Source of the DNA: an uncultured Bacteroidales bacterium
GTDB lineage: Bacteria > Bacteroidota > Bacteroidia > Bacteroidales > Bacteroidaceae
Direction: 5' to 3'
DNA length: 64,000 nucleotides
Assembly: GCA_945836755.1 (NCBI GenBank)
Contig: CAMAMB010000004.1
Location: forward strand, 1 to 64,000
Position 1 is the stretch's first letter; each line of letters begins with the position of its first letter. A program made the translations under genes and the position numbers. Under the pieces are notes generated by a model. The model saw only the letters and a list, made by a program, of their open reading frames with translations. It did not search any database and was not told where the DNA came from. Below are positions 17,837 to 52,404 of the stretch, in pieces.

Positions 17837-18036
17837 GCCATCGTCGCCCGTTCGGGCGACGCCCATACACCGCCCCGTGGGCGGGCGTACACCAACCGAA
17901 GGATGAGCGTACACCGATAAGGCGACGATGGCGGGATGTACATGCCGCGACATCGAGGTCCGGTGGAGTGAGCCACTGCCACTGAGCCCAAACTCTCCGC
18001 CGGAAAGTATGTATGTTTCTCCACTATTAGGTATAC
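17837..18036 (+). repeat. 22-bp-unit intergenic element, copy 1 (with right arm)
   Basis: Terminal inverted repeat GCCATCGTCGCC (17837-17848) and its complement GGCGACGATGGC (17921-17932) enclose a 7-base linker (17849-17855) and three 22-bp units starting at 17856, 17878 and 17900. The unit core here reads like GGGCGGGCGTACACC. A right arm of about 115 bp (17921-18036) aligns without gaps, apart from the far end, to the arm of copy 2, at roughly 75-80% identity by eye. It lies between two convergent genes. No coding bias is seen between the arms. Confidence 0.8.
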
Positions 18037-18038
18037 AG

Positions 18039-18078
18039 CGACCGGCCTTGCGTACTCATCATACAGCAAGGCCGGTCG
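18039..18078. terminator. Bidirectional terminator between convergent genes
   Basis: A 13-bp perfect stem, CGACCGGCCTTGC (18039-18051) with GCAAGGCCGGTCG (18066-18078), lies just beyond the repeat arm. The plus-strand 3' side continues TATTATATG. It separates the hydrolase gene from the convergent nupG-like gene. Confidence 0.65.
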
Positions 18079-18174
18079 TATTATATGAATAGAAGAGAGA
18101 AAGGTGCACAACAGGGAGGCCGGACACAACGACGCGAAAATGTCTGTGAGCTGAACCCACCTGTGTGACCCCGT

Positions 18175-19440
18175 CTATTTCTCCTTGAACAGCAAGGCGA
18201 AGAGGACAAATACCGCAAATGCGTAAGCGGAGAAGATAGCCCAGCACGTGCGCCAGCCTGCTATGTTGAGCTCTGGCGAAGCCCCTTCTTGCACATAGTA
18301 ATTGACCACCCACATGGCTACGATGGTGCCTATCGTGGCGCCGAGACCGTTTGTCATCATCATAAAGAGGCCCTGCGCACTGCTTCGGATGCTCTTGTCG
18401 GTGTGGTTGTCGACGAAGAGTGCCCCTGATATATTAAAGAAGTCGAAGGCCACACCGTAGACAATCATGGAAAGGATAAACATCCATACTCCTGCACCCG
18501 GATCGCCCGTAGCGAAGAGGCCGAAGCGCAGCACCCAGGCAAACATGGCAATAAGCATGACACGCTTGATGCCGAAGCGCTTCATGAAGAAGGGTATGAG
18601 CAGGATACAGCATGTCTCGCTGATTTGAGAGAGTGAGATGAGGGCGTTGGCGTTATTAGCTCCGAAGGTATGGGCATACTCGGGTATGTTCTTAAAACTC
18701 ATGATGAAGGGATTGGCATAGCCATTGGTGATCTGGAGACTTACTCCCAACAGCATGCTGAAGATGAAGAAGATGGCCATGTGGCGGTTGGCCAGGAGCT
18801 TGAAGGCATCGAGACCTAAAGACTGTGCCACCGACTTGCGCTCGTCTCTGCTGCTGACGGGACACGGAGGCAGTGTGGGAGCATAAAGTGCCAGCACCAA
18901 GGAGAGCGCGCCGCTCAGAAGAAACTGCTGGTGCTCGGTCTGGAAACCTAAGAAGTTGACGAGGAGCATGGTACAGATAAAACCAATGGTGCCAAACACA
19001 CGGATGGGCGGGAAGTCGCGCACAGTATCAAGTCCGGCCTGTCCGAGGGCATTGAAGGCCACTGCGTTGCTGAGCCCTATGGTGGGCATGAAGAAGGCGA
19101 CACTCAGAGCATAGGGTATGAAGAGGCCAGACATGGAGGCGGTCGCTCCCATGCCGAGTGCCGTAAAGCCCGTGTAGAGCATCAAGGCACCGGCAATGGC
19201 GTGGCAGAGGCCCAACAGACGATGACCTGCCAGCCAGCGGTCGGCCACCACTCCCACAAGCCCCGGCATAAAGAGGCAGACAATGCCTTGCACGGCATAG
19301 AACCAACCAATCTGGGTGGAAAGGCCATGAGTGGCGAGATAGCTGCCCATGGAAGTAAGATAGGCTCCCCAAACAGCGAACTCGAGAAAGTTCATGACTA
19401 TGAGGCGGAGCTGTAAAATAGTTTTGGTGGAGGTTAGCAT
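18175..19440 (-). CDS. nupG: Nucleoside permease, NupG/XapB family
   Basis: Inner-membrane proton-driven nucleoside transporter of the MFS. Signature segments agree closely with E. coli NupG: FLEFAVWGAYLTSMGSYL, DFPPIRVFGTIGFI, AIFFIFSMLLGVSLQITN, SLSQISETCCILLIPFFMK, VYGVAFDFFNISGALFVD and SSAQGLFMMMTNGLG. The ATG at 19440 gives 421 residues, near the family length. The 22 extra codons upstream are proline-rich and unlike the family. It has no nucleoside-catabolism neighbour in this window: the next gene upstream encodes a porin-like protein, so cooperation with it for uptake is possible but unproven. Confidence 0.9.
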   Translation of the reverse strand: MLTSTKTILQLRLIVMNFLEFAVWGAYLTSMGSYLATHGLSTQIGWFYAVQGIVCLFMPGLVGVVADRWLAGHRLLGLCHAIAGALMLYTGFTALGMGATASMSGLFIPYALSVAFFMPTIGLSNAVAFNALGQAGLDTVRDFPPIRVFGTIGFICTMLLVNFLGFQTEHQQFLLSGALSLVLALYAPTLPPCPVSSRDERKSVAQSLGLDAFKLLANRHMAIFFIFSMLLGVSLQITNGYANPFIMSFKNIPEYAHTFGANNANALISLSQISETCCILLIPFFMKRFGIKRVMLIAMFAWVLRFGLFATGDPGAGVWMFILSMIVYGVAFDFFNISGALFVDNHTDKSIRSSAQGLFMMMTNGLGATIGTIVAMWVVNYYVQEGASPELNIAGWRTCWAIFSAYAFAVFVLFALLFKEK

Positions 19441-19578
19441 ATAGGTATGATTGAAAGGGTTAGTCAGTGGGAGCGTAGGAGGGGCAGGACAGATGGGCCG
19501 ATACACTGCCGGTGAGATGCTTGTTGAGCGCGGTATTGCCGACTTGCATCCTGAGAAGGAGGAGGAGTGGACGAGGCA

Positions 19579-22035
19579 TCAGTTGATGAAGTTCCACGAA
19601 AGGCCCAAGCGGATGACCATCTGGTTCAAGGGAGCGTGTGGCACAAGGAAGGGACGGCCGCTGCCCTGCTTATAGTTGACGTGAGAGGCCATGATATAGA
19701 AGCGCGTGCGCTTCAGGTGGAAATTGGCATAGACATTCACTATGGGATAATTTCCCACCTTGACACGCCCTACTTTATCCTGGACGGCATATTGGCCGAT
19801 GATAGGCGAATAGGTCGGCGCGTAATAGGGGGTGAAATAGGTCACATCTCCACCCACCTCCGTGCGTAGCACCTTTGCCAAACGGAATAGGAGGTAGAGG
19901 TTAGAGTATCCCGTGAACGCGGGCACGGGGAAAGCGTCCTTCTTGGTCGTGGTCTGATAGGTCAGCTCGTTGTCCCAGTGTAAGATGCCCCACTTGAAAT
20001 CTTGGTTGAGCGTAAGCCCGAGCAGCTGAATGTTGGTGTCGCTCTGGCGAACCTTTACCCCGTGACGATAGGCAGTATATCCGTCGGTATGGCCGTACGG
20101 GGTAAGCTCTTCTGCAAAGTAGGTATAGTTTTGCAGGTTCTGCAACGAGGCTGTGAGGCGAGTATGGTGATAGCTGGCAGAAGCAGCGAGAGAAGTGCGT
20201 ATCTCCTTCTTGAGATTGTCGTTATCCCACCATGCATTGCGGCCATGGTAATGACGATAATAGAAAGTGGGTCTCTCTGTATTGAAAGAGCCGGTGAGCT
20301 TGATGCGCAGGCTGTCGCGGCGGAAGGGCAAGGTGAGCGAAGCGTCGCCTTCGGCATGCACCTCTCCCCAGTCAGTGCCGGTGGTGCGGAGCTCTCCTAA
20401 GAGGTGGTAATGGAACACCTTGCCCTGCTCACGCAGAAGGCGGGCACCAATGGTAAAATAGTTTTCGACATAGGCTACCGGGTTCTTCTGCTCGTTAGGA
20501 AGCGTGTAACGGTTGTAGGCATGGCGGCCGTAGAGCTGTATGCCGCTCTGCATCCACTTGTTGAAGCCCTCGTGAAGCTCCAGGGCGAGGGTGTTCTCGA
20601 CGAGGATATGGTCGGTGCGATCGGAAGCCGAGTCTCCGGGAAGGAAGAAGTGGCTGAAGTACCCGGGGTTGTCGATATTGTTGCGTTCACGCGACTGGAA
20701 ACGGCGTACACCGTCGTTGAGACGGAAGGAATGGATGAACGAGGTGACGGGAACGAACTCAGTGAGGATGGTCAGCGTATCGGCTGTCGGCTCAGAGCCG
20801 ACCAGCAATGAGTCAGAGGCTTGACCCGTCGACGATGTCTGACGACGAGGCTGTCCTGCAGTGCGTGAGGACGACGAGCGGGCAGAGCGATTGAACTCCC
20901 GGTTAAGGTCAACACCTCGGGGCTGACGGGCACGGGAAACCGGAGGTGCTGCCGGCTGCTGGCGATGGAGACTGTCGGTGGCAGCTATCTGAAGAGCAAG
21001 ACTGTCTACCGGCAGAGCAGACGGAGTGGCATTGCGACTGAGGCTGTCAGACGATTGAACGCCGGCACTACTAAGACTGTCGGTCTGGGAAACAATGGTA
21101 TTATTACTGCGCGTATCAGGCTGAGAGCCCTGACGCTTGCTTTCAAAATAACGCAGGGCATCTTCTTTCTTTACAAGGCGGCCATGCTGGTCGCGATAGC
21201 GGGTGAGCCCAAGGCTATAACGATGGGTGAAGAAAAGCGTATTCTGCATAATCTTATTCCAGGCCCGCTGCAAGTTGATGGGCATATCGGCCGGCGAGTA
21301 AGTTGTGGGGAAACTCTCCGGACGATTGACAAAATCATCGTGCTGAATGCCACCATTCTCACGCGTCTTGAGCTGCAAGTGAGAAACGATGAGGTGGAGC
21401 TTATATCGGTCAGTGATATAAGAGCCATATAGACTTCCATTGAAGTGAGCCGTGGATTGTGCCTGGTAGTAACCACGACCATATAGATAGTCAGCCTTGA
21501 AACCTACGCCGAGGTGCTTCCCGGCATTGACTGCGAAGTTGGCCTTAATTCTGTCCTCGCCATTCTGTTTGTTGCCACACTCGTGATAGGTGATGGTGGT
21601 AAAGGGCGATTTCGTGTTGGTGAATAGAAGCTGGCCCGGAGTAGTGATGGAGTAGTCGTAGGGGCGGAGGAAAAGGAAAGGCTCACTCATCGTGTCGAAC
21701 GTCTGCTCCAGAAAGTGTCTGCTGATGCGTGGAGCAGCGAGGTTGCCTGTGTAGTTGTAGTGTCCGGTCATGCCCGAGGTGAACGCCTCGCGCTGGAAGG
21801 CATGGGGAACCGTATCGTAAGGGGCAGGAACAATATCGCCAAAACGAGGATGGACAGTCCAGGCATACAATCCCTCGGGCACGTCGGTACGTTCAATGCT
21901 GTCGCTGAGGGTGGATTGCCTGCCGGCCCGCCCTCCAAGGGGTAACGTCTGTGTCTGATGAGGTTGCTGGGCTGCGGCATCTATGGCAGACAGCAGGAAC
22001 AGCAGCAGAAGAAGTAAGGGCTTGGGTAAGCGCAT
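19579..22035 (-). CDS. Large outer-membrane protein, Porin_10 family
   Basis: 818 residues with a signal peptide (MRLPKPLLLLLLFLLSAIDAAAQ). The N-terminal and C-terminal parts show alternating amphipathic strands of a beta-barrel, and the C-terminus ends LGLSWNFIN. A low-complexity, Ser/Arg-rich insert lies around residues 300-420 (SARSSSSRTAGQPRRQ). This layout fits the putative porin family of Bacteroidetes (Porin_10). No substrate is known for the family. The insert could be surface-exposed. It sits between the nupG-like gene and a degenerate protease/TPR gene on the same strand. Confidence 0.78.
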   Translation of the reverse strand: MRLPKPLLLLLLFLLSAIDAAAQQPHQTQTLPLGGRAGRQSTLSDSIERTDVPEGLYAWTVHPRFGDIVPAPYDTVPHAFQREAFTSGMTGHYNYTGNLAAPRISRHFLEQTFDTMSEPFLFLRPYDYSITTPGQLLFTNTKSPFTTITYHECGNKQNGEDRIKANFAVNAGKHLGVGFKADYLYGRGYYQAQSTAHFNGSLYGSYITDRYKLHLIVSHLQLKTRENGGIQHDDFVNRPESFPTTYSPADMPINLQRAWNKIMQNTLFFTHRYSLGLTRYRDQHGRLVKKEDALRYFESKRQGSQPDTRSNNTIVSQTDSLSSAGVQSSDSLSRNATPSALPVDSLALQIAATDSLHRQQPAAPPVSRARQPRGVDLNREFNRSARSSSSRTAGQPRRQTSSTGQASDSLLVGSEPTADTLTILTEFVPVTSFIHSFRLNDGVRRFQSRERNNIDNPGYFSHFFLPGDSASDRTDHILVENTLALELHEGFNKWMQSGIQLYGRHAYNRYTLPNEQKNPVAYVENYFTIGARLLREQGKVFHYHLLGELRTTGTDWGEVHAEGDASLTLPFRRDSLRIKLTGSFNTERPTFYYRHYHGRNAWWDNDNLKKEIRTSLAASASYHHTRLTASLQNLQNYTYFAEELTPYGHTDGYTAYRHGVKVRQSDTNIQLLGLTLNQDFKWGILHWDNELTYQTTTKKDAFPVPAFTGYSNLYLLFRLAKVLRTEVGGDVTYFTPYYAPTYSPIIGQYAVQDKVGRVKVGNYPIVNVYANFHLKRTRFYIMASHVNYKQGSGRPFLVPHAPLNQMVIRLGLSWNFIN

Positions 22036-22075
22036 AGTCAGAAGAATGAAGCGGAAGAGGTGAAGGCTTGGCAGA

Positions 22076-23800
22076 TTACTTGCTATACTTCTCGATGTAG
22101 GGGGCTACTAAGTTGTCGCCCAGCTCCTGGGCTTTCTTGAGATGGGTAAGGGCCTCCTGCTTTTGGCCCGTCTCACCATAAGCAAGGCCAAGGATGCGAT
22201 AAAGGTCCGGGCTCTCGGGCAATTCAGGAAGAAGAGCCTTGGCAGCCGAGAGAGCCTGCTGATATTCTCCTACACGCAGATAGAAGAAGGCCTCCTCCAG
22301 GCGATAAGGCAGCGATACCTTAGCGGTGGCAATGGCCGTATGCAGGTCGTCGAGAGCCTGCTGATAAAGATGAGCGTCTACCTCTACCTGATAACGCAGA
22401 TAGTAGAAGCGGTCATTGAGGTTGCGTGGACCAAGTATCTTCTCGTACTCGTTGTAATCGTTGATAGCCTCGCGAAGACGCCCGGCATCTATCAGGCGCT
22501 GGGAGCGCTCTAAATAGTACTGCGCAGACTGTGCTGTAAGCGGCTTGGGAAGGACGGCGATGGCACTATCCAGGAGGGCGATGACCCGAAGACTGTCAGT
22601 ACCGCACATTTCAAGCGACCGAGCGGCTGCGAAATATACTTCCGGCGACTGGAAGGCAGGGTCGACGAGAACGTTCTTATAGTCGGCGTAAGCAGCAGCA
22701 TAGTCCTTGCTGGCAAAGAGACACTTCCCCCGCTGAAAGAGGTAGATGGACAGAGGCTTCAGACTATAGGCCGCTGTAGCTTCTTCAATGGCTCGCTGCA
22801 ACGTCCAGCCTGGAAACAACGCTGTAGTATCTCGCTGTGAGAGCGAAGCCCGATAGAGTAACTCGCTGAAGGAGTGGTGGACGTCGCATGCTGCCATCAG
22901 ACTGTCGCCTTGTGCATTGGCAGCAAGCCTGAATGCTTTCTGAAAATCAGCTTCTGTCTCGGCGTAGCGGCCAAGAGTGGCCAGAAACCGGGCACGCTGC
23001 ACATACCCATCAGGCGCTGTGGGCCAGGCATCCACAAAATCATTGTAAGCTATCAGACACGCCACCGTGTCGCGCTTGTTCATCATGTAGAGCGCGGTCT
23101 GTGCTTCATTGAATTTTTCAGGCAGTGCCTTGGGAATATGGATGGCACGCAAGTCGGTGCTCAATACCGTGGTCGACTTTTGACGAAGATCGTTGACGAA
23201 ACGGGCATCAATGGCGCAGGCACCCACCGCCGTGTGGGCGGACGAAGGTCGTTTCACGTTATACTGCAATATGGCTACGGCTTTACCATCCTCATCGAGC
23301 AGCGGTGTACCTACCATGTCGGCATCGTTGGGCACGGAGGTATCGTAATAGCGATACTGCTCATAAGGTGTATCGGCAGTAATCTCCGCCGTGAGTAGGT
23401 GGGCCTTCTTCTCAGACACTTGCTGATAGTAATTAAGTCGGGTGCCCATGGCCACCGGAGAGGATGTAAGTGCAATGAAAGGCGTTTCTCCCTTGGTCTG
23501 GACGGTGAAACGAACCAGGTCACAGGCACTTTCTGCAGCCACAATGCGGTGGACGACATACTCCTTGCCTTTGAAATCGCGAACCACAGCCTTGTGCGCC
23601 CCTTCTAATAGCGTGTAGGCACAAACGGCATGGCCTGAGGCGTTCACATAAAAGGCCCGGCCTGTCTTTCTGACCTTTCCGTCGGACCCGTATGCTGTCA
23701 CGGAGAGCATGGCCTTAGCGGCGTCTTTCACTGAAACCTGTCCCCAAGTGGGGAGAATAGACAGAAGACTCAGCAGAAGTGATAGATATACGGTTTTCAT
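22076..23800 (-). CDS. Exported trypsin-fold pseudo-protease with TPR repeats
   Basis: From the ATG at 23800 the protein has 574 residues and a signal peptide (MKTVYLSLLLSLLSILPTWG). Residues about 30-210 look like a trypsin/DegP-type chymotrypsin fold: GRAFYVNASGHAVCAYTLLEG corresponds to the usual strand carrying the catalytic His, and SACDLVRF to the Asp strand. However, the His position is Thr63, and the region that should contain the GNSGGPL Ser motif reads DMVGTPLLDEDG, so only the Asp (D94) is kept. Residues about 230-574 hold tetratricopeptide-like helical repeats, with clear units near the end (LGLAYGETGQKQEALTHLKKA). It is probably a binding or scaffold protein in the periplasm. Partner unknown. 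Confidence 0.75.
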   Translation of the reverse strand: MKTVYLSLLLSLLSILPTWGQVSVKDAAKAMLSVTAYGSDGKVRKTGRAFYVNASGHAVCAYTLLEGAHKAVVRDFKGKEYVVHRIVAAESACDLVRFTVQTKGETPFIALTSSPVAMGTRLNYYQQVSEKKAHLLTAEITADTPYEQYRYYDTSVPNDADMVGTPLLDEDGKAVAILQYNVKRPSSAHTAVGACAIDARFVNDLRQKSTTVLSTDLRAIHIPKALPEKFNEAQTALYMMNKRDTVACLIAYNDFVDAWPTAPDGYVQRARFLATLGRYAETEADFQKAFRLAANAQGDSLMAACDVHHSFSELLYRASLSQRDTTALFPGWTLQRAIEEATAAYSLKPLSIYLFQRGKCLFASKDYAAAYADYKNVLVDPAFQSPEVYFAAARSLEMCGTDSLRVIALLDSAIAVLPKPLTAQSAQYYLERSQRLIDAGRLREAINDYNEYEKILGPRNLNDRFYYLRYQVEVDAHLYQQALDDLHTAIATAKVSLPYRLEEAFFYLRVGEYQQALSAAKALLPELPESPDLYRILGLAYGETGQKQEALTHLKKAQELGDNLVAPYIEKYSK

Positions 23801-23882
23801 AGATGGAAGTGCGTGATGAAGGTATGGATTATGAAGTGCGATAGAAGTACGGGTAAGTGGAATGGGTAGAGGACGAAGATAG

Positions 23883-25562: not shown

Positions 25563-25700
25563 GTAGTCTGGATGGTATAACGGCAAGGCGATATGCCGTT
25601 AAGTTGTTATTATATATAGAGAGTGTGACAGCGGGAAGGGTTGTAGCCTTAGCGACACCTACACTGGCGTATGAGTGCCTCGGTGCGGGTGGCGTCGTTG

Positions 25701-26630: not shown

Positions 26631-26777
26631 ATACTTGAGGGTTACTCGAAGATGAGTGTGTAACGCGTTTACGGTTTGAGCTTTACTCATTGAGCTAATT
26701 GGGTTTCTTCTTCGTGCTTCCAAGCCATGGCTCACTGCCTCGGATGGTCGTTCGGGAGGGTCACAGCGGTCGGGAGG

Positions 26778-28830: not shown

Positions 28831-29961
28831 TTAATCGTTAAAGACGGAAGGAAGTATCAGCATAAGCACCTCTTCGCGTTCCTTCTGCACGGCAGGCTTG
28901 AGCACACCTGCACGACTGGCGTCGGCCAGCAGCATGGAGACGTCGTCGGCATCAATGTTTTGCACAAGGTCGAGCAGGGCGGTGCCATTGAAGGCAATGC
29001 TCATGGGGTTGCCCTGATACTCACAGAGCAGGGACTCCTCGGCCGACTTGCAGTAGTCGAGGTCTTGGGTGGAGATATGCAGGCTGCCTTCGGCCAGACG
29101 CAGCTTGACCAGCACCACGCCGGGGTTGGCAAAAACAAGCACTCGGCGCAGCACACTCACAAAGGCCTGGCGATTGAGCGTAAGCACATTGAAGTTGTCC
29201 TGGGGTATGACCTTCTTATAAGCGGGATACTTGGCGTCGACCAGACGGCAGAACAGCGAGAAACTGGCTGTAGTAAACCGTGCGGTACGATGGTTGAGGT
29301 TCATCTCCAATGCTTCGTCGCCCTGCTTGGCCAGCATGGCTTTGAGGAGGGTCACCGGACGCGCTCCGAGCAGATACATGCCGCCGCCATCGGTCACACC
29401 CACGTCTTTATAGGTAGACACCACAAGCTGACTGCCGTTGCTGGCAGCGAGCGAGAGGTCGCCGTCGCTGAGGTCGAAGCAGATAGAGTTGAAGTGGGGG
29501 CGCAGTTTGTCGTCAGCCACTGCAATGAGGCCACGCGTCAAGCCGGCATGAACGAAGGAGGCGGGAAGTGAGAGGGAAACGTTCTCCTCAGCAGCTTCCT
29601 GGAAAACCGGATAGTCTGTGGCGTCCTGCCCCATCATCTTATACTGTCCATTCTGATAACAGATGGTAGTCTCGAGGGTAGAGGTATTCACAAAGATGTC
29701 GAGAGGCTGCTCAGGCAATTCCTTGATGGCATCCTGGAGCACCTTGGCGTTGATGGCGAAGCATATGTCCTCGTCACACTCTTCGAGGCTGAGGTGCGAC
29801 ATCATTGTCGAGTCGTTGTCAGAGGCCGTAATGGTAAGCTCCAGGCCATGGATGTCGAATTTAAAGCAGTCAAGAATAGGGAGAGTGTTCTTCTGCACTA
29901 TCACACGACCGATGGTCTGTAAATGGGAAGAAAGCAGGTTACTTGAAACAACGAATTTCAT
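28831..29961 (-). CDS. dnaN: DNA polymerase III beta subunit (sliding clamp)
   Basis: The ring-shaped clamp that tethers polymerase III to DNA. The ATG at 29961 gives 376 residues, the usual length, beginning MKFVVSSNLLSSHLQTIGRV. Landmarks include NTLPILDCFKFD, the ASDNDSTMMSHL strand and the C-terminal AFNGTALLDLVQNIDAD region before VLMLILPS. A 51-codon upstream extension in the same frame has no family match and is rejected. Upstream lies a copy of the 22-bp-unit element. dnaA is not next to it here. Confidence 0.97.
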   Translation of the reverse strand: MKFVVSSNLLSSHLQTIGRVIVQKNTLPILDCFKFDIHGLELTITASDNDSTMMSHLSLEECDEDICFAINAKVLQDAIKELPEQPLDIFVNTSTLETTICYQNGQYKMMGQDATDYPVFQEAAEENVSLSLPASFVHAGLTRGLIAVADDKLRPHFNSICFDLSDGDLSLAASNGSQLVVSTYKDVGVTDGGGMYLLGARPVTLLKAMLAKQGDEALEMNLNHRTARFTTASFSLFCRLVDAKYPAYKKVIPQDNFNVLTLNRQAFVSVLRRVLVFANPGVVLVKLRLAEGSLHISTQDLDYCKSAEESLLCEYQGNPMSIAFNGTALLDLVQNIDADDVSMLLADASRAGVLKPAVQKEREEVLMLILPSVFND

Positions 29962-30224
29962 GCTTTTGAAAATAAAAATAGGTGATGACCCGCAGGCCTC
30001 AATGGGGCGAAAGGCCATCGGATGGGGAACGTGAAAGCAGTCAGAGCAATATGCCCATGCCGCAAAAGGCACCAGGCCCTTCATGGCAGCCACAAAGGTA
30101 CTAAGATTTTGCATTATGCCATCATTGCCGCATACAAAAATAGGCGCTTCTCCCCCTTCAGAGACGGCTGCATGCAGATTTGGTAGTCGGTAGATACCTC
30201 CTGTCCGTATCTGCGCCGCTTGCA
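29962..30224. promoter_or_regulatory. dnaN upstream region
   Basis: This gap contains -7-like sequences TACCTTTG (minus strand, 30100-30093) and TATTTTTG (30142-30135) facing dnaN. Neither has a good TTG box at 19-21 bases, so the promoter assignment is tentative. The repeat element, copy 2, lies directly upstream of both. Confidence 0.3.
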
Positions 30225-30467
30225 GCCATCGTCGCCCAAACGGTGGACGGACGTACGACGTTCTGTGGACGGTCGTACAGCGCTCTGTGAACGAGCGTAC
30301 AGCGCTCTGTGGACGGACGTACAGCGCTCTGTGGACGGACGTACACCGATAAGGCGACGATGGCTGGATGTATATGCCGCTCTATCGAGTTTCTGTGCAG
30401 TAAGTTACTGCCAATAAGCCGAAACTCTCTGCCGGGAAGTCTGTTTGTTACTCAATATTTAGAGTAC
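30225..30467 (+). repeat. 22-bp-unit intergenic element, copy 2 (with right arm)
   Basis: Inverted repeat GCCATCGTCGCC (30225-30236) and GGCGACGATGGC (30353-30364) flank the linker CAAACGG (30237-30243) and five 22-bp units beginning at 30244, 30266, 30288, 30310 and 30332. Four of the five contain GACGTACAGCGCT or a close variant. The right arm (30353-30467) aligns with that of copy 1, sharing GGATGTA, ATGCCGC, ACTGCCA, AAACTCTC and GCCGG in the same spacing. It sits upstream of dnaN and downstream of the nqr operon. Confidence 0.85.
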
Positions 30468-37077: not shown

Positions 37078-37710
37078 TTACTGAGCTTCGTCTCCGTCGG
37101 CAATGGTGTAATATGGGAACTGCGCCGCGCCGTGGCGCAGAAGGCGACCATCGGCCACAAGTCGCTTCAGCAGAGTTATACAATAAGTGCGCGAAAATCC
37201 TGTAACCGTCTGAAGCTGACGTCGATTGAAGAAACTGATATCGGTTTCGGTCATGCAGCGGCGCATCCGCTCCACCACTTGGTCGTCGCTCCAGAGCAGG
37301 TTCTGGTTGAGCGGATGGGCCGTGCGCCTGAAAGCCACGTCTCTCAAGGTGTTGACCAGACGCTTTTGGGGAAGGAAGCGCACACCCGAGAGTTTCAGGC
37401 TACGCGCCACGAGTTTGTCCTCAGCGTCGGTGATGGCTCGTTCTGATTTCAGTTCGGGTGTGAAATAGCCGATGCCTTCAAGGTGGACGCGGTCACCGGC
37501 GCTGAGTCTGTCTGAAAGAATGCCGCTAAGCGCCTCCAGCACCCCCTTGACGTCAGCAGGCGACATGGTACTCGAGGCACTAATCTTCTGACATATCTGG
37601 TCGGTGGTACACAGTTGGGAGTTGGCCACCACAGGATAGTAGCCCTGAAAAGGGATATCGGGTCTGTGGGGAATCTTACGCAGGTCGAAGGTAATAATGG
37701 ATGTAGCCAT
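37078..37710 (-). CDS. HU-HIG family DNA-binding protein
   Basis: 210 residues. The first 125 or so match the Bacteroidetes HU-HIG histone-like domain: TDQICQKISASSTMSPADVK, then VLEALSGILSDRLSAGDRVHLEGIGYFTPEL, then LSGVRFLPQKRL. Unlike plain HU, it has a C-terminal winged-helix-like region (NRRQLQTVTGFSRTYCITLLKRLVADGRL, about 160-195) that could read specific DNA. It is transcribed alone. A decayed copy of the 22-bp-unit element lies 70 bp upstream. Whether the protein binds such repeats is unknown. Confidence 0.85.
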   Translation of the reverse strand: MATSIITFDLRKIPHRPDIPFQGYYPVVANSQLCTTDQICQKISASSTMSPADVKGVLEALSGILSDRLSAGDRVHLEGIGYFTPELKSERAITDAEDKLVARSLKLSGVRFLPQKRLVNTLRDVAFRRTAHPLNQNLLWSDDQVVERMRRCMTETDISFFNRRQLQTVTGFSRTYCITLLKRLVADGRLLRHGAAQFPYYTIADGDEAQ

Positions 37711-38411
37711 AAGTTCTGTTATTAAATAGTAGGTTATGTGTTCGCAGGCTCATGTAGCAGTAAGCGCATGTACTTCGGGGCGCTGTCGCCCTTTCGGTGG
37801 ACGTTCGTCTGGCAATCGGACGACGCTCGTACGCCATTCAGCAGACGGGCGTCTGTCACTCGGTGTGCAATCGTCTCCCAAACAGTAGACGCTGACGCAA
37901 AGCCTTACAAAGATACGACGGCAAGGAGGCGAAAACAAGAGGGCCTGCTCCGAGGACCGTCGATTTATAGATTATTGTCCATTTCATCGGCAACTTGTCA
38001 CAAGCGGAAGCAGGGTGTTAAAAGCCGCAGCCATCCGGTCGGCGGTTAGAATGGGCGGTATGGTGAGGGACTGCCTCAACAAGTCACGATGGATGCCGTC
38101 ACAGGATATGGGAGACCATGGAAAGTGAGATTTTGAGGGTCTTCATCGCGAAAAATCATACCCGGCAGATGGTTTGACTGCCGTTTGAGCGGGCTCAGCA
38201 CGTCCTCTTTTGGCCGTCAAAGAGGAGCCATGAGGCTGAAATTGCTCCCCAACTTGCAAAAATGCCGGTCGCTTTGTCCCTCACAGCATGAAGAAATGTC
38301 TAAATTTGCAGCAAATTTTTGCCGCAAGCACTCAACCGGCCACTGAGCCGCCCCGTGCGCGACGCATCTACCTCCCCTCGTTTAACCCATAGCACTCAGC
38401 TATCAGCAATT
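37711..38411. other. Divergent gap with repeat copy 4 and a possible promoter
   Basis: A 701-bp region between the HU-HIG gene and the plus-strand gene at 38412. It holds repeat copy 4 (37778-37907), a hairpin CCTCTTT/AAAGAGG (38204-38225), and a -7-like TAAATTTG (38301-38308) facing the downstream gene. A TTTG at 38273-38276 lies 24 bases before it, longer than usual. No gene is supported here. Confidence 0.4.
37778..37907 (+). repeat. 22-bp-unit intergenic element, copy 4 (degenerate)
   Basis: The left edge keeps GTCGCC then CTTTCGG (37785-37797), as in copy 2. Five 22-bp periods follow, starting at 37798, 37820, 37842, 37864 and 37886, with the GACG..CGT core recognisable in most units. 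The terminal inverted repeat is poorly kept: the right end reads GATACGACGGC about 12 bp further on. It looks like an aged copy of the same element. Confidence 0.6.
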
Positions 38412-43385: not shown

Positions 43386-43460
43386 GGCTATTCTGCATCG
43401 CTCTCACGAGCGACGATAGTACACTTCCTATTGGCCACAAGCCATTTAGAACTAATTTCA

Positions 43461-43520
43461 ATAGAGAGTTTAAGAGTGGTACAGGGCCTCCCCCTCCCAC
43501 TCTTAGACTTGTCTCTTTTT
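43461..43520 (+). terminator. Terminator after rpmF
   Basis: TAAGAGTGG (43471-43479) and CCACTCTTA (43497-43505) form the stem, extended by GAG/CTC pairing outside, and a run CTCTTTTT (43513-43520) follows. Transcription beyond it into fabH is probably reinitiated. Confidence 0.75.
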
Positions 43521-43627
43521 ATATGAGAGGCACGGCATAATCTCACGCTGACTAAAAGACGTACATCCTTTCAAGGTATTTTAGTGCAGTTCGCTCAGTG
43601 CCCTCTCCCTAACCAAGTGAGTATAAC

Positions 43628-44620: not shown

Positions 44621-44681
44621 TACCGGCCCGAGTGACAAAACGACTGCATCCATTCTCGCAACAACCCATATACCCACAAGA

Positions 44682-44724
44682 CCAACGGTCATGACTTTAA
44701 GCCGTGACCGTTGGTTGTTCGGTT
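44682..44724 (+). terminator. Terminator after fabH
   Basis: CCAACGGTCA (44682-44691) pairs with TGACCGTTGG (44705-44714), then TTGTTCGGTT. The stem is strong and the tail moderately T-rich. Confidence 0.6.
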
Positions 44725-44760
44725 AAATCTAACCCACGTCTAACAGGCACAACGCAGTAA

Positions 44761-45669: not shown

Positions 45670-45742
45670 GCCGGCTCTCATATATTCACTTCTCTCGCAG
45701 CTGCCGCATGGCGGTGCGACATTACATAAAACCGATTGAACT

Positions 45743-47056
45743 GTGTCCAAATTAATAGCCATTGTAGGCCGTCCCAACGTGGGTAAGTCTACACTCTTTA
45801 ATCGCTTGACCGGCACCCGGCAAGCCATTGTGAGCGACGAGGCAGGCACTACACGCGACCGACAATATGGTAAGTGCGAGTGGGGCAAGACCACATTCTC
45901 ATTAGTTGATACCGGAGGCTGGGTAGTCAACTCGGATGACATTTTCGAGGAAGCTATCCGCCGTCAGGTGACATTGGCGACCGAAGAAGCCGATGCCATC
46001 CTCTTCGTCGTGGATGTGAAGAACGGTATCACCGATCTTGACGAGGAAGTTGCACGCATCTTGCGTGCCACGAAAACGCCTGTCATACTATGTGCCAACA
46101 AGGCCGATAATAACATTGACCGCTACGATGCCGCAGAATTTTATAGCCTCGGCATAGGCGATCCATACCCCATCTCTGCTGCAACCGGAAGCGGCACAGG
46201 CGACCTGCTTGACCGCATCCTGGAAGTTGTGGGACGGGATAACGATGATGACGCTGTAGATGACATTCCTCGCTTGGCCGTAGTCGGTCGTCCCAACGCC
46301 GGTAAAAGTTCTATCATCAATGCGTTCCTCGACGAGCAACGCCATATCGTGACTGACATCGCCGGCACCACGCGAGACAGCATACTCACACGCTACAACA
46401 AGTTCGGCTTCGACTTCAACCTCGTAGATACTGCCGGCATTCGCAAAAAGAACAAAGTGAGCGAGGACTTGGAGTTCTATTCTGTGATGCGCGCCATACG
46501 CTCCATCGAATACTCTGACGTGTGTCTGCTCCTACTTGACGCGACACGTGGAATAGAGGGACAGGACCTCAACATATTGCAAATCATCCAGCGCAACCAG
46601 AAGAGTCTCGTCGTTGTAGTAAATAAGTGGGACCTCGTAGAGGATAAGTCTCAGGTAGCCATACGCCACTACACAGAGACCATACGTCAGCGTCTCGCTC
46701 CATTCACCGACTTCCCCATCGTGTTTACCTCAGCTGTAACTAAGCAGCGTATCTTCAAAGTGTTGGAGGTGGCCAATGAAGTCTGCAAGACACGTAAGAA
46801 CCATGTCGGCACATCTAAGCTCAACGAGGAGATGCTTCCTCTCATTGAAGCGTATCCCCCACCCTCCATCAAGGGTAAATATATCAAGATAAAGTATTGC
46901 ACGCAGATCCCCAATACACAAATTCCCACCTTCGTCTTTTACGCCAACCTTCCGCAGTATGTCAAGGAGCCTTACAAGCGCTTCCTTGAAAACAAGATAC
47001 GTGAACGCTGGAACTTCACAGGCACCCCCATTCAGATATTCATACGTCAGAAGTAA
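45743..47056 (+). CDS. der: GTPase Der (EngA)
   Basis: Double GTPase for 50S ribosome assembly, 437 residues. The two G domains have GRPNVGKST near residue 9 and GRPNAGKSS near residue 182, DTGGW and DTAGIRKK switch II motifs, and NKAD and NKWD specificity motifs. A KH-like C-terminal domain follows (about 355-437). The start codon is GTG at 45743, which places [14 protein letters not shown] right at the N-terminus; no ATG is available nearby. It is 74 bp downstream of era. Confidence 0.97.
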
Positions 47057-47076
47057 TTGGCCTACACTTTCATACA

Positions 47077-47529
47077 ATGAACCTTAATATCTCTATACTT
47101 GGGAAGTGGCAGAAGGCTACTTCCCTTGTTGTTTGCAGCTTCTGCTGTGCCTCTCTGTGTTTCATCCATGCCTCTTGCTCTGACAGTCATGCGACAGAGG
47201 CTGACCCCAACGGCTTCCAAGACAGTTTGGCAGTATATGACTATATGCTCCTTGCCAAGGGCCACTTCGAAGCCTATACCGATTCGATGGCTTCATGCCA
47301 CGGCGCTCCTCCCACATACAAGCAACACACCATTGCCTTGCTGAGACACCATTATCTGCAAGTGCTCTCTGACCGTAAGGGAGTACGCAGTGCACAGGTT
47401 GCCCGTAAAGAGTTTCACGACGATGGCAAGATGGTCAACGTCTACCTCAACGTGACCTACAACGACAGCACCAGCGACGAGATACAATTCCCCATGGTTT
47501 TCTTCCAAAATTCCTGGAGGATACGATAA
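47077..47529 (+). CDS. Small exported protein, unknown function
   Basis: 150 residues. A hydrophobic N-terminus (ATSLVVCSFCCASLCFIHASC) followed by Ser/Asp is consistent with an exported protein, and the Cys at HASC could be a lipid-attachment site, though the -3 position (His) is poor for a lipobox. The remaining residues form an alpha+beta domain with three strands near the end (MVNVYLNVTYNDSTSDEIQF, FPMVFFQNSWRIR) resembling the DUF4878/NTF2-like lipoproteins of Bacteroidales. It lies 20 bp after der, but its role is unknown. Confidence 0.65.
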   Translation: MNLNISILGKWQKATSLVVCSFCCASLCFIHASCSDSHATEADPNGFQDSLAVYDYMLLAKGHFEAYTDSMASCHGAPPTYKQHTIALLRHHYLQVLSDRKGVRSAQVARKEFHDDGKMVNVYLNVTYNDSTSDEIQFPMVFFQNSWRIR

Positions 47530-47550
47530 GTAGTGCGGTCTAATGCGCGA

Positions 47551-47567
47551 TTGGCACGAAGTTTGCA
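47551..47567 (+). promoter_or_regulatory. Sigma-54 promoter upstream of htpG
   Basis: TTGGCACGAAGTTTGCA (47551-47567) is a textbook RpoN site: GG at 47553-47554 and GC at 47565-47566 are exactly 10 bases apart and the surrounding bases match TGGCACGRNNNTTGCW throughout. Transcription would start near 47578, leaving a leader of about 38 bases before the htpG ATG at 47616. Confidence 0.65.
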
Positions 47568-47615
47568 ATATAGAGCGCAGAAATACCCAACATATTTTGT
47601 AAACATACTATCACT

Positions 47616-49673
47616 ATGAGCCAGAAAGGTAAAATAGGTATCACGACGGAGAACATATTCCCCGTCATCAAGAAGTTCCTTTACAGCGACCACGAAATAT
47701 TTCTGCGCGAGCTGGTAAGCAATGCCGTAGATGCCACGCAGAAACTCAAGACGCTGGCCATGAAGGGCGAGTACAAGAATGAGCTTGGCGACACCACTGT
47801 CCGCATCTCCATTGACACTGAGGCGGGCACACTGACGGTCAGCGATAGTGGCATCGGCATGACGGCCGAGGAAATCGACAAGTACATCAATCAGATTGCT
47901 TTCTCAGGGGCAAATGATTTTCTCGAGAAGTATAAGGAAGATGCTGCCGCCATTATCGGCCATTTCGGTCTTGGTTTCTACTCTGCCTTCATGGTAGCTT
48001 CTCGTGTTGACATACTGACCCACAGCTACAAAGATGGTAGCGAGGGTGTCAAGTGGACTTGTGACGGCTCGCCCGAGTTTGAGATTACGCCCTGCGATAA
48101 GTCCACGCGCGGCACCGATATTGTGCTCCACATCAGCGACGACTGCAAGGAGTTCCTCGAAAAGAACAAGATACAAGAACTACTCACCCGCTACTGCCGC
48201 TTCCTACCCGTGGCCATTGCATTTGGCAAGAAGACCAAGTGGGAAGGGGGCAAGGAAGTAGAGACTGACGAGGACAACATCATCAACGTCACTGACCCGC
48301 TCTGGACAAAGGCTCCCGCCTCACTCAAAGACGAGGACTACAAGAAGTTCTACTCCGACCTCTTCCCCATGAGCGACGACCCTCTGTTCTGGATACATCT
48401 CAACGTCGACTACCCCTTCCATCTCACCGGCGTGCTCTACTTCCCGCGTATCAAGAACAACATTGACATTCACCGCAACAAGATACGTCTCTTCTGCAAC
48501 CAAGTCTTTGTCACTGACCAGGTTGACAACATCGTTCCCGACTTTCTCACCCTCCTCCACGGCGTCATCGACTCTCCCGACATACCTCTGAACGTCAGCC
48601 GAAGCTATCTCCAGAGCGATGCCAACGTTAAGAAAATTTCCAGCTATATCACTCGCAAGGTGGCTGACCGTCTACAGTCCATCTTCAAGAACGACCGCGC
48701 CGACTTTGAGCAAAAGTGGAACGACCTCAAGCTTTTCATCCACTACGGGATGCTCAGCCAGGAAGACTTCTACGACAAAGCCAAAAACTTCGCCCTGCTC
48801 ACTGATGTCTCGGGCAAGCACTTTACCTACGAAGAGTATCAGACTTTAGTCAAAGACAATCAGACTGACAAGGATGGTAATCTCATTCTGCTCTACGCCA
48901 ACAACAAGGAGAGCGAATATGCCTACATCGCAGCCGCCGAAGCCAAGGGCTATAACGTGCTCCTCATGGACGGCGACCTCGACACCGCTACGGTGGGACT
49001 GCTCGAGCAGAAATTCGAGAAGTGCCGCTTCAGCCGCGTCGATGGCGACGTGATAGACCGCCTCATCGTCAAGGAAGGCAGCGAGGCCGGGCAGGTAGAA
49101 GCCTCTCTGAGCCAGAACCTCAGCGGCATCTTCACCGGCGCTCTGCCTAAGATAGACAAGGCCGAAATCCGCGTAGAGACAGCTGCCATGGGTAGCGACG
49201 CCGCCCCCGTGGTCATTACCCAGAGTGAGTACTTGCGCCGTATGAAGGACATGAGCCGCTTCCAGCAGGGCGCCTCCTTCTATGGCGAAATGCCTAACAT
49301 GTATACCCTCGTGCTCAATGCCGACCACCGTCTGCTCAAAGGCGTGGCCGCCGACATGGAGACCGCGCTCCACGACAAGCTTGCCCCGATTGAGAGCGAG
49401 ATGAAAGGTCTCGAGGCACGCCGCAACGCCATTAACGAGGCGCAGAAGGATAAGAAGTACGACGAGCTTACCGAGGATGACAAGGCCATGTCACGCCAGG
49501 TGGACGACGATATTCACCAGCTCGAGGAGAAGCGTCAGACTGTCTGGAAGGAGTACAGCGCCGGCAATCCTACCGTAGCCCAGCTGATAGACCTTGCTCT
49601 TTTGCAGAACGGCCTGCTACAAGGCGAAGCGCTGAGCCGCTTTGTCAGCCGCAGTGTCGAGCTTATGAAATAA
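47616..49673 (+). CDS. htpG: Molecular chaperone HtpG (Hsp90)
   Basis: Bacterial Hsp90, 685 residues. N-terminal ATPase domain: FLRELVSNAVDATQKL near residue 26, DSGIGMTAEEIDKYINQIAFSG near residue 78, GHFGLGFYSAFMVA near residue 111. The middle domain carries the conserved LPLNVSRSYLQ-like segment DIPLNVSRSYLQ with its catalytic Arg, and the C-terminal dimerisation domain contains LIDLALLQNGLL. It is preceded by a near-perfect sigma-54 promoter, unusual for an Hsp90 gene, and ends at a bidirectional hairpin. Confidence 0.97.
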   Translation: MSQKGKIGITTENIFPVIKKFLYSDHEIFLRELVSNAVDATQKLKTLAMKGEYKNELGDTTVRISIDTEAGTLTVSDSGIGMTAEEIDKYINQIAFSGANDFLEKYKEDAAAIIGHFGLGFYSAFMVASRVDILTHSYKDGSEGVKWTCDGSPEFEITPCDKSTRGTDIVLHISDDCKEFLEKNKIQELLTRYCRFLPVAIAFGKKTKWEGGKEVETDEDNIINVTDPLWTKAPASLKDEDYKKFYSDLFPMSDDPLFWIHLNVDYPFHLTGVLYFPRIKNNIDIHRNKIRLFCNQVFVTDQVDNIVPDFLTLLHGVIDSPDIPLNVSRSYLQSDANVKKISSYITRKVADRLQSIFKNDRADFEQKWNDLKLFIHYGMLSQEDFYDKAKNFALLTDVSGKHFTYEEYQTLVKDNQTDKDGNLILLYANNKESEYAYIAAAEAKGYNVLLMDGDLDTATVGLLEQKFEKCRFSRVDGDVIDRLIVKEGSEAGQVEASLSQNLSGIFTGALPKIDKAEIRVETAAMGSDAAPVVITQSEYLRRMKDMSRFQQGASFYGEMPNMYTLVLNADHRLLKGVAADMETALHDKLAPIESEMKGLEARRNAINEAQKDKKYDELTEDDKAMSRQVDDDIHQLEEKRQTVWKEYSAGNPTVAQLIDLALLQNGLLQGEALSRFVSRSVELMK

Positions 49674-49719
49674 CGTGACCGCCTCGGAAGACAGGCTCTT
49701 CCGTGTCTGAATAGCAGAT

Positions 49720-49756
49720 GAGGCTGTGTGGTGACTTAGGTCATACACACAGCCTC
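49720..49756. terminator. Bidirectional terminator htpG / DUF4468 gene
   Basis: GAGGCTGTGTG (49720-49730) and CACACAGCCTC (49746-49756) form an 11-bp perfect stem between two convergent genes. The loop is 15 bases. T-runs are weak on both sides. Confidence 0.6.
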
Positions 49757-49778
49757 ATCTTCGTATATCTACCGCAGC

Positions 49779-50372
49779 TTACTTTGCCCGTGCCGCTTCA
49801 GCCGCCTGCTTGAATATCTGTTCCACACGGTCGATGGTGAACCTACGGAACTTGCCGGCTATGCGGGTCAGCTTCTTGCCATCGCGGCTCAGGGCTTCGT
49901 CGTCAGTAATCCACTTCTCGGCCGGACGGTCTTCCTTGAAGTCACTATTGGCATCGGCGTCGTCATACTTGTAATGCAGCCGTCTCACCTGGGCAGTAAA
50001 GCCACCGTCTTTGGCCTGCATAATCAGCTGATAGTAAAAGCGCACGCGGTGGGTCACCCAGTTGGTCCGCTTGAAGTAGAGGTACTCTTCGATGCTGGCC
50101 ACTACCAGTCCGTCCTCTGCCGACGCTTCCGTGATACGGCTCTTGGAGAGCTGCTCCGGACCTTGCACCAACGACTTTTCAGTGAAGTCTATGAGCGACT
50201 GGTAGATGTCAGCACGCGTACGTCCGGAGGCCACGACGGTTGTATCAAACTGCACATAGCCGTCCACCACAGGCACAGCGCCCTGGAGGTAACGGCTCAC
50301 GTCGGCCTTCTGAGCAGGAAGCACCGCACAGCAGGAGACGAGGAGAAGGAGCGAAGCAATAATCTTCTTCAT
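49779..50372 (-). CDS. Exported DUF4468 protein
   Basis: 197 residues with a signal peptide (MKKIIASLLLLVSCCAVLPAQ). After GYVQFDTTVVASGRTRADIYQ comes the conserved DUF4468 core: FKRTNWVTHRVRFYYQLIMQAKDGGFTAQVRRLHYKYD. The family is common in Bacteroidales and binds no known ligand. It has an alpha+beta fold like the BPI-like TBP-domain group. It is convergent with htpG. Whether it is co-transcribed with pyrD (54 bp away) is unclear. Confidence 0.8.
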   Translation of the reverse strand: MKKIIASLLLLVSCCAVLPAQKADVSRYLQGAVPVVDGYVQFDTTVVASGRTRADIYQSLIDFTEKSLVQGPEQLSKSRITEASAEDGLVVASIEEYLYFKRTNWVTHRVRFYYQLIMQAKDGGFTAQVRRLHYKYDDADANSDFKEDRPAEKWITDDEALSRDGKKLTRIAGKFRRFTIDRVEQIFKQAAEAARAK

Positions 50373-50426
50373 AAGTATAAAGGGATAAGGGGAATATATG
50401 TTTTAAACTTTCGCAGGAGGGTGGCG

Positions 50427-51335
50427 TTAACCAATCACCCCGATGATGTCGTGCACGTCGGCTATGCCGTGGTCGTCGAGCCAGCGGTCTATGCCGTCGA
50501 CCACCTTCATGGTCACCGCTGGGTCTATGAAGTTGGCAGTCCCAATCTGTACTGCAGTGGCGCCGACCATCAGAAATTCGATGGCGTCTTCCGCCGTCAT
50601 GATGCCGCCCAATCCAATGATTGGGAGCTTGACCGCCTTTGCCACCTGGCTCACCATGCGCAGAGCCACAGGCTTGACGCAGGGGCCGGAGAGACCGCCT
50701 GTGCCAATGCTGAGGCGTGAGCAGCGGCGTTCAATGTCTACGCTCATGCCCATCAGCGTGTTGATGAGCGACACGGCGTCTGCACCTTCCGCCTCCACTG
50801 CTCGGGCTATGGAGGCTATGTCTGTCACGTTGGGCGAGAGCTTGACTATGAGTGTCTTAGAGTAAGCTTTGCGCACCTCGCGTACTACGGAGGCTGCGCC
50901 CTCGCAGGTCACGCCGAAGGCCATGCCGCCGTCCTTTACGTTCGGACAGGAGATGTTAAGCTCTATGGCATGCACCTCTTCCAGGGCGTCAATATGGCGT
51001 GCGCAGGCTGCATAGTCCGCGGGGCTCGACCCCGAAACGTTGACAATGACCTCCGACTTCAGTCCCTTGAGCTGTGGGTAGATATGCTGACAGAAGTGTT
51101 CCACACCGGGGTTTTGCAGGCCCACGCAGTTGAGCATGCCTCCCGTGGTCTCTGCCATGCGCGGATAGTCGTTACCCTCGCGCGGACGAAGGGTCGTACC
51201 CTTGACCACAAAGCCGCCGAGGCGGTTGAGGTCGACGAAGTCGGCAAATTCAAGGCCGTAGCCGAAGGTGCCCGAGGCCGTAAGTACGGGATTTTGCAGC
51301 GACAGCGCGCCTATGTTTACTTGTAGCTTTGCCAT
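50427..51335 (-). CDS. pyrD: Dihydroorotate dehydrogenase B, catalytic subunit
   Basis: Oxidises dihydroorotate to orotate in pyrimidine synthesis, class 1B, working with an electron-transfer partner. 302 residues with FMN-binding TIM barrel: NPVLTASGTFGYG near residue 14, the catalytic Cys in ELNISCPNVKDGG near residue 131, and the phosphate-binding GIGGIMTAEDAIEFLMVGATAVQ region near residue 245. Its start overlaps the end of pyrK by 19 bp, so the two subunits are translationally linked. Confidence 0.96.
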   Translation of the reverse strand: MAKLQVNIGALSLQNPVLTASGTFGYGLEFADFVDLNRLGGFVVKGTTLRPREGNDYPRMAETTGGMLNCVGLQNPGVEHFCQHIYPQLKGLKSEVIVNVSGSSPADYAACARHIDALEEVHAIELNISCPNVKDGGMAFGVTCEGAASVVREVRKAYSKTLIVKLSPNVTDIASIARAVEAEGADAVSLINTLMGMSVDIERRCSRLSIGTGGLSGPCVKPVALRMVSQVAKAVKLPIIGLGGIMTAEDAIEFLMVGATAVQIGTANFIDPAVTMKVVDGIDRWLDDHGIADVHDIIGVIG

Positions 51336-52108
51336 GATAATTGACGAACATTAAATACAGGACCTTCTTTACATACACACACGTTATGCCCGTCGGCGTT
51401 CTTCTCCACACAGCACAGGCAGGCGCCGAGGCCGCAGGCCATGAGGTTTTCGAGCGAGGCATAACAGCTGTCTATGCCTACTTCTGCCGCCTTGGCTGCC
51501 ACTGCCATCATCATGGGCTTAGGTCCGCAGGTGGCCACGACGTCGAAGTGCTCCGTGGCCCATACGCTATGGGCCGTCACAAAGCCGCGCTCGCCGGTAG
51601 ACCCATCTTCTGTGGTCAGGCACACACGCCCGTAACGCCCGAAGTCGTCGAGCTGCATAAGGTCTACACTGCGACGACCACCGAGCAGGAAGGTCACCTT
51701 GCGGCCTTGCTCATGAAGCAGGCTTCCGTAGTAGAGAAGAGGCGCCGTACCCACGCCGCCACCCACCAGGAGGTAGCTCTCAGCTTCGGGGAGGTCTATG
51801 GGGAAACCATGTCCCAGGGCGTAGACGCAGTCCAACTTATCGCCCGGACTTAGGGCAGAGAAGGCACGAGTGCCCTCGCCCACTTCATGGATGAGAAGCC
51901 AGAGGGTGCGGTCGGCGTAATCTACGAAATTGACAGAGATGGGGCGACGCAAGAAGGTATGCGGAGCGCGCGGAGCAAGCAGCTCTACAAACTGGCCCGG
52001 CTCTATGTCAGAGAGCGAGACCTCAGCGGGCAGCCTGAGTTTCAGCAGCACATAACCCTCACGGGGACGCTCAACTGCGGCCACCACCAAGGAGTGGGAA
52101 TATTTCAT
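51317..52108 (-). CDS. pyrK: Dihydroorotate dehydrogenase B, electron-transfer subunit
   Basis: Passes electrons from the PyrD FMN to NAD+ through FAD and a 2Fe-2S cluster. From the ATG at 52108 it has 263 residues. The FAD domain has FVELLAPRAPHTFLRRPISV, the NAD part has LLVGGGVGTAPLLYYG, and the cluster ligands are the Cys residues in MACGLGACLCCV and HNVCVCKEGPVF near the C-terminus. The 45-codon upstream frame is rejected since the family begins near 52108. It precedes pyrD in a two-gene operon. Confidence 0.93.
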   Translation of the reverse strand: MKYSHSLVVAAVERPREGYVLLKLRLPAEVSLSDIEPGQFVELLAPRAPHTFLRRPISVNFVDYADRTLWLLIHEVGEGTRAFSALSPGDKLDCVYALGHGFPIDLPEAESYLLVGGGVGTAPLLYYGSLLHEQGRKVTFLLGGRRSVDLMQLDDFGRYGRVCLTTEDGSTGERGFVTAHSVWATEHFDVVATCGPKPMMMAVAAKAAEVGIDSCYASLENLMACGLGACLCCVEKNADGHNVCVCKEGPVFNVRQLSWQSYK

Positions 52109-52177
52109 AGTGGGTAGAAGAGTAAGTTGACAGTCGGGTCTGCTACGTGGCAAGGCCCGCGGTTTGTAATTCGGGTG

Positions 52178-52208
52178 TAAAGTTAAATCTTTAAGCCTTA
52201 CATGCCAA
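52178..52208 (-). promoter_or_regulatory. Putative promoter of pyrK-pyrD
   Basis: On the minus strand TTG (52208-52206) is followed after 20 bases by TAACTTTA (52185-52178), close to TAnnTTTG. The start would be near 52171, about 63 bases before the pyrK ATG. Confidence 0.45.
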
Positions 52209-52308
52209 CATCGCACGCCGATTAACAAGCGGCAGACTGACAAAAACCTTTGTCAGCGGGCACTGACGCGCATCTGCAACCACACGCGCGGTTCGCCCGC
52301 TGCTTGCA

Positions 52309-52404
52309 GCCATCGTCTGCCGAGGCGTGGACGCCCGTCGCCCGACCGCTGTACGCTCGTCGCCCGACCGGTGTACGCCCGTCTACCCAAAAGGCGACGA
52401 TGGC
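52309..52404 (-). repeat. 22-bp-unit intergenic element, copy 3 (inverted)
   Basis: The inverted repeat is GGCGACGATGGC (52393-52404) with GCCATCGTC (52309-52317), extended outward by GCTTGC on both sides. Read on the minus strand the linker is TTTTGGG (52392-52386) and three 22-bp units follow (52385-52364, 52363-52342, 52341-52320), with cores such as GACGAGCGTACAGCGG. It is therefore in the opposite orientation to copies 1, 2 and 4. The right arm shared by copies 1 and 2 is not evident. Confidence 0.75.

Follow-up and report, generated by a model that had tools for sequence, protein, structure and literature searches.

What are the short rows of 22-bp units that recur between the genes of an uncultured Bacteroidales bacterium? 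The stretch in question comprises the first 64,000 nucleotides of contig CAMAMB010000004.1 (forward strand; hereafter the window). A first-pass annotation of the window had described four dispersed copies of an element with inverted 12-bp ends and had offered binding arrays for a nucleoid protein, a mobile element similar to miniature inverted-repeat transposable elements (MITE), or structured RNA as explanations. The copies belong to a dispersed family of short intergenic elements, which consist of rows of nearly self-complementary 22-bp units and mostly carry inverted ends. In relatives the same spacing is found with different sequences, which suggests that the geometry is kept more than the letters. 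Tentatively, and with a probability of roughly 0.4, we interpret the elements as intergenic elements similar to MITEs or to bacterial interspersed mosaic elements (BIME), whose dyads lie on one face of the helix and would offer a platform to a putative dimeric DNA-binding protein.

The four copies in the window

All four copies lie at the places first described, and these are also the top four peaks of an independent scan of the window for self-matches at a lag of 22 (scores of 41, 34, 28 and 27 of 44; next score 23; best of 20 dinucleotide shuffles 25). Copy 1 scores only 2 above the best shuffle, yet both of its 12-mers are perfect. The E-values below refer to the covariance model of the following section.

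17837..17932, minus strand: copy 1, a 96-bp element with perfect 12-bp inverted ends and three 22-bp units (E 6.8e-26 for 17823-17946)
30225..30364, minus strand: copy 2, a 140-bp element with perfect 12-bp inverted ends and five 22-bp units (E 6.3e-19)
37768..37888, minus strand: copy 3, degenerate and without inverted ends, adjoining the 5′ end of the HU-HIG gene (E 2.1e-7)
52295..52418, plus strand: copy 4, the 96-bp element 52309-52404 with outer arms CTGCTTGC and GCAAGCAG that pair (E 2.7e-25)

Beyond the elements listed here, the ranges of the first-pass annotation for copies 1 and 2 consist mostly of a flank that the two have in common. Copy 3 is a member of the family, although its best range is the one listed here and its ends are not inverted; copy 4 has two mismatches in its first 12-mer. 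The intergenic placement holds relative to long frames, while short frames overlap the copies. In the model scores the minus strand is better for copies 1-3. Since the units are nearly self-complementary, the element plan reads alike on either strand.

An element built of 22-bp units

The basic element has a length of 96 bp and consists of GCCATCGTCGCC, 4 bases, three 22-bp units, 2 bases and GGCGACGATGGC. When the 10-bp inner ends were paired in the host genome with the gap free to vary from 64 to 94 (31 lengths), seven pairs were obtained, six corresponding to 96 bp and one to 118 bp counting the full ends; all 7/7 pairs thus give elements of 96 or 118 bp, that is, a 22-bp step. A second layout, applied to 13 loci of the host genome, allowed only lengths of 96 bp plus or minus multiples of 22 and is therefore no test of such steps. 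It revealed terminal inverted repeats, as known from MITEs, at 12 of the 13 loci (12-bp ends with at most 4 mismatches in all), namely ten elements of 96 bp, one of 118 bp and one of 140 bp, and no end pair at locus C26.

A covariance model (R1) built from ten 96-bp copies detected 16 distinct places in the draft genome, an assembly that is 85% complete, each with E < 1e-6 on the better strand and four of them within the window. Ten of these served to train the model and so match it necessarily, which does not apply to the six others, copies 2 and 3 of the window among them; the 13-locus end test covered all but three of the 16. Most copies match on both strands because of the near self-complementarity of the units. 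According to the first-pass annotation, a restriction to these four copies with none in any relative would have spoken against it; the 16 copies and the homologues in relatives show otherwise. The perfect 12-mer occurs in three further places (C14, C17:10588 and C46), which look coding by eye. Of the 31 stretches that a scan of named genomes for the exact pattern returned, not one bears a Bacteroidota title or shows the spacing of 94 or 116 that would be expected; they are read as chance.

Taken over 39 units from 12 copies, the consensus reads CGGTGTACGNNCGTCGCCCGNN, in which ACGNNCGTC is conserved at 90% or more, as would be expected of a binding motif. Units are more alike within a copy than between copies (identity 0.741 vs 0.685; the difference was reached by 0/5000 shuffles), and their similarity does not track unit position within the copy. 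Being contiguous and diverged (mean identity 0.741 within copies), they do not have the make-up of clustered regularly interspaced short palindromic repeats (CRISPR), in which identical repeats alternate with unique spacers. By inspection, dyads of two kinds alternate at a distance of 11 bp, with the CCGNNCGG kind at 15.5, 37.5, 59.5 and 81.5 of the 96-bp copy.

Homologues in relatives

The model matches 6 of 58 genus genomes at E 0.001 or better, the host genome included. Clear homologous arrays, with an 18-bp palindrome and a 4-bp spacer, were found in two other genus genomes (G030 and G014); G022, G081 and G016 match weakly and were not counted as homologues. In G030, the four units set on each of seven copies pair at 5 to 8 of 8 positions, and the automatic count gives four dyads in five copies and three in two. 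Mean pairing of the arms in this genome is 6.43 of 8 for own partners, 6.65 for other units within the same copy and 5.06 for other copies; 20/5040 copy permutations reach the own-partner value. The two copies of G014 show no preference for the own partner (2156/5000 shuffles).

When 198 genomes of the order were sampled, matches came from two, namely the host genome and G162, a member of another family. Eight stretches of G162 were examined, whose spacers are mostly GATC, as in G030. All 7/7 aligned arrays are 84 bp long in an alignment that leaves out a longer array (L319). Two loci of G162 carry an exact 98-bp element; to its left the flanks differ, and to its right they agree over a short patch. 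Left and right flanks of the same G162 copy pair no better than flanks taken from different copies. Several four-unit arrays of this genome (L320-L326) also have, as judged by eye, an outer inverted pair like TTAACTCTTTCC / GGAAAGAGTTAA at 12-20 bp beyond the array.

Spacing of arrays irrespective of sequence

For a survey of spacing alone, 2.06 Mb from 30 genus genomes, including the window, were screened for tandem arrays with periods of 8-40. Known contig coordinates decided which stretches were taken; many surround dnaN and two surround R1 matches (G081, G016), and the sample is therefore not random. Of 434 tandem rows, 232 lie in predicted frames (28 palindromic) and 202 are intergenic; 126 of the latter fail the palindrome or complexity filter, with 17, 18, 16 and 9 rows at periods 8, 9, 21 and 22. 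This leaves 76 intergenic rows that are palindromic as well as tandem, 53 of them with a period of 21-23 (21 in 32 rows, 22 in 16 and 23 in 5, four of which are one long array). The other periods are 8-9 (15 rows), 18 (three rows) and 14, 24, 32, 34 and 38 (once each); there are no rows at 19, 20 or 25-31. A period of 21-23 is present at least once in 20 of the 30 genomes, and on inspection the unit letters of the arrays differ from genome to genome. Two of the four window copies pass the survey filter; copy 3 has a z of 3.3 and copy 4 is not among the rows listed.

Good dyads were counted in 57 rows with a period of 21-22, of which G030 and G014 contributed nine. Four dyads were found in 25 rows, three in 13, one or two in 14 and five or six in 5, so that four is the commonest automatic count; among the survey rows, four dyads occur in 18/48. 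Neither one shuffle of the genus DNA nor 200 kb of E. coli gave the detector any row. In 271 kb from other families of the order it found 5 rows (periods 9, 22, 23, 23 and 30), compared with 76 in 2.06 Mb within the genus, and thus the class extends beyond the genus. In a further control of 239 kb that had been chosen for an inverted pair (L084-L114), 4 rows were found without the coding filter, and 1 and 0 with it. When tandem arrangement was not required, the distances between short palindromes gave a spectral peak at 10.75 bp (power 24 vs about 1 for the mean of three shuffles), which stems largely from the same arrays.

Two side observations were made in these data. In 200 kb of genome G004 (L165-L174), eleven intergenic palindromic arrays have a 9- or 18-bp period, often with TCNGA followed by four bases, so that a second geometry exists within the genus. 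In the arrays L264, L183 and L184, single units look inverted by eye with respect to their neighbours.

Comparison with described repeats

Porphyromonas gingivalis, which we take to belong to the same order as the host, harbors BrickBuilt, the nearest described relative of the present elements. BrickBuilt (PMC4596501) is dispersed and intergenic and has 23-nt tandem stem-loop units (up to 22.8), inverted ends GAGACCTTTGCA like those of IS5-family elements, and leaders and tails of up to about 300 nt; it is described as restricted to P. gingivalis and P. gulae. The overall plan is similar (dispersed, intergenic, tandem units, inverted ends), whereas the present elements have ends GCCATCGTCGCC, mostly measure 96-140 bp, are built of 22-bp units and show no leader or tail. 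By ends and period, the features compared, they are set apart from BrickBuilt. Repeats of P. gingivalis are also treated in PMC5771137.

Repetitive extragenic palindromic elements (REP; PMC3733652) are 20-40-bp palindromes, mostly in dimers, with a GTAG or CGTC tag and suggested roles in supercoiling, termination and mRNA stability. The present elements are alike in that they are dispersed intergenic palindromic units in groups. CGTC occurs in the unit. They differ from REPs and BIMEs in the 21-22-bp step, the commonly four dyads and the inverted ends as bounds, and no link was found to the Y1 transposase that is associated with some REP families only. The BOX elements of pneumococcus, a member of another phylum, likewise have modules at the ends and inner units that vary in number, but unit lengths and sequences differ. 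Iterons and the sites of DNA-wrapping proteins such as ParR and Lrp-type regulators are repeated symmetric or phased sites with steps near 11 or 21-22 bp; they occupy few loci per replicon with one conserved motif, whereas many dispersed loci with many motifs are found here. In the open-access literature searched, neither an account of such arrays as a class nor a name was found, in agreement with the first-pass annotation; an account in subscription papers is possible.

Interpretation

If the arrays serve as binding platforms, the constraint that they share would be the DNA helix itself. Dyads every two turns would fall on one face and could offer a platform to a dimeric DNA-binding protein, which would either bind in adjacent positions or wrap about 80-100 bp, and the recognition letters would change quickly between species. 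In the cell, such elements would resemble the BIMEs of E. coli as points of local binding and topology between genes, and would not be operators of one regulon. A binding platform is favored because a two-turn step common to different sequences is most simply a constraint on duplex DNA. The early suggestion that 22 bp amounts to two turns and would let a protein sit on one face has become the best-supported part of the first-pass annotation, as the 21-22-bp period recurs in the genus with different sequences. Whole blocks have been spread or converted in at least some of the copies. Identical blocks, inverted ends and concerted units also give the elements the behavior of MITEs or BIMEs, a reading compatible with that of a binding platform.

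Several results weigh against a binding platform. No binding protein was identified, and arrays near dnaN and gyrA are not positionally conserved above background (see below). Period 20 is absent from the survey although it is as near to 21 as 22 is, and in G004 periods of 9 or 18 in 11/12 rows do not fit two helical turns. With only one or two good dyads in 14/57 rows, some rows are single hairpins. A row of palindromes has dyads at the half-period by symmetry, and hence the 10.75-bp peak is not independent of the period; a scan of the window for dyads at 11 bp was no higher than shuffles. The arms of G030 change together between copies, unlike what would be expected for a protein that binds a fixed sequence.

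A wider proposal, which we regard as rather unlikely, is that of an element class defined by its geometry and not its sequence: rows of commonly four two-turn dyads, dispersed among the genes across a bacterial order and with species-specific letters, would be a bacterial counterpart to positioned wrapping sites, on which dimeric nucleoid proteins from a fast-evolving family would land, wrapping 80-100 bp. If the spacing rule were true, a bacterial group would keep the geometry of intergenic DNA while its sequence turns over. Such a rule would point to an unrecognized architectural protein, the elements could be found by spacing instead of similarity, and BrickBuilt would fall within a wider class.

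The inverted ends and discrete lengths, the exact 98-bp element with different left flanks in G162, the further 95-bp flank common to copies 1 and 2 and the similar overall plan of BrickBuilt could all stem from a non-autonomous mobile element of the MITE or REP type, in which a transposase in trans copies the end-bounded units with the inner array as a passenger, as proposed for BrickBuilt. This origin appears doubtful, as the common 21-22-bp period among different sequences is left unexplained by it, and gene conversion between existing copies could also give block identity. No match to the Y1 transposase, the only transposase class searched, was found in the host genome at its 85% completeness or, for example, in G033, G063, G016 and G002, where arrays are present. 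Y1 matches occur in 28/58 genomes, and a tandem palindromic array was found at 4/30 Y1 loci; a link to REP-associated tyrosine transposases (RAYT) was rejected on these results. By eye, no target site duplication was seen in the displayed flanks of the host loci and of G162. What remains of the MITE-like character proposed at first are the dispersed copies, the inverted ends and the exact element at two G162 loci. Very unlikely, in our view, is a mutational by-product, with palindromes seeding slippage and hairpin template switching in replication and rows built and homogenized without function. The greater likeness of units within a copy, the per-copy homogenization of the G030 arms and units that look flipped by eye in G020 and G064 would agree with such a process. 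It is countered by the end sequences and unit motif that dispersed copies have in common, by four as the commonest number of dyads and by the absence of rows from 200 kb of E. coli; nor is a slippage mechanism known to us that would set a step of 21-22 bp.

Unlikely, too, is an element acting at the RNA level, in which hairpin rows, transcribed in leaders or at mRNA ends, would either end transcription or protect the transcript. Six further pairs about 2 bp outside the 12-mers covary between the host copies, RNAalifold reports five interior pairs with one double change each in these copies, fold energies are low (computed without a shuffle control), and the G030 arms pair better within than between copies. 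A hairpin row, though, needs no 21-22-bp period, and the interior of the host copies pairs no better within than between copies; G014 likewise lacks an own-partner preference. The mismatches of the arrays show no net excess of G-T over A-C (83 vs 91), and their overdispersion between arrays, reached by 156/10000 simulations, can be produced by repeated units. The gene context shows no significant bias (of 61 cases, 18 are convergent, 34 codirectional and 9 divergent; p 0.14), and no Rfam family reaches its gathering score anywhere in the window. The structured RNA of the first-pass annotation has thus gained little support: it lost ground because of the lack of G-T bias, of significant context bias and of clear covariation in the interior of the host copies, and it is kept alive by the covariation of the outer stem and of G030.

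Gene neighborhood and flanks

Two further features of the window adjoin the copies.

37078..37710, minus strand: HU-HIG domain gene, neighbor of copy 3 (PF18291, E 1.9e-26)
17934..18028 and 30366..30459, plus strand: flank common to copies 1 and 2 (78% over 88 bp, blastn)

The HU-HIG gene had been placed near copy 4 and its product considered as a binder of the arrays; it adjoins copy 3 instead, and no link between HU-HIG and the arrays was found. Copy 2 is located between dnaN (window 28831-30114) and an NqrF-like oxidoreductase gene, as judged by Pfam domains. In the host genome, copies adjoin dnaN, HU-HIG, gyrA, ligA and purA, and the end of recG is one gene away (window, L012, L010, L004 and L014). 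A regulon of DNA metabolism, suggested by these neighbors, was dropped because the named neighbors of arrays in relatives are mixed: of 46 array-facing survey genes, 20 other than dnaN were named, among them two DNA-related ones (N6 DNA methylase and DnaX-like) and five without a Pfam match, the rest being mixed. Positional conservation was judged by arrays of period 21-23 with a z of 4 or more within 400 bp upstream. Such an array lies upstream of the dnaN match in 3/29 relatives (30 best of 50 matches; three loci end at contig ends) and upstream of gyrA in 3/20, two of these three overlapping predicted short frames. The background is 29/332 genes whose upstream noncoding DNA measures 200 nt or more.

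The shared 3′ flank of copies 1 and 2, which lie about 12 kb apart, has a length of 95 bp and an alignment score of 82, compared with a maximum of 25 in 300 shuffles. The segment was not found in the other host loci examined (L001-L069). It may be the trace of a larger duplicated block. Close to the copy at C26, an open frame of repeated SLPTWERGLK-like peptides was noticed (L066 2011-2370), which presumably resembles a CRISPR array read as protein.
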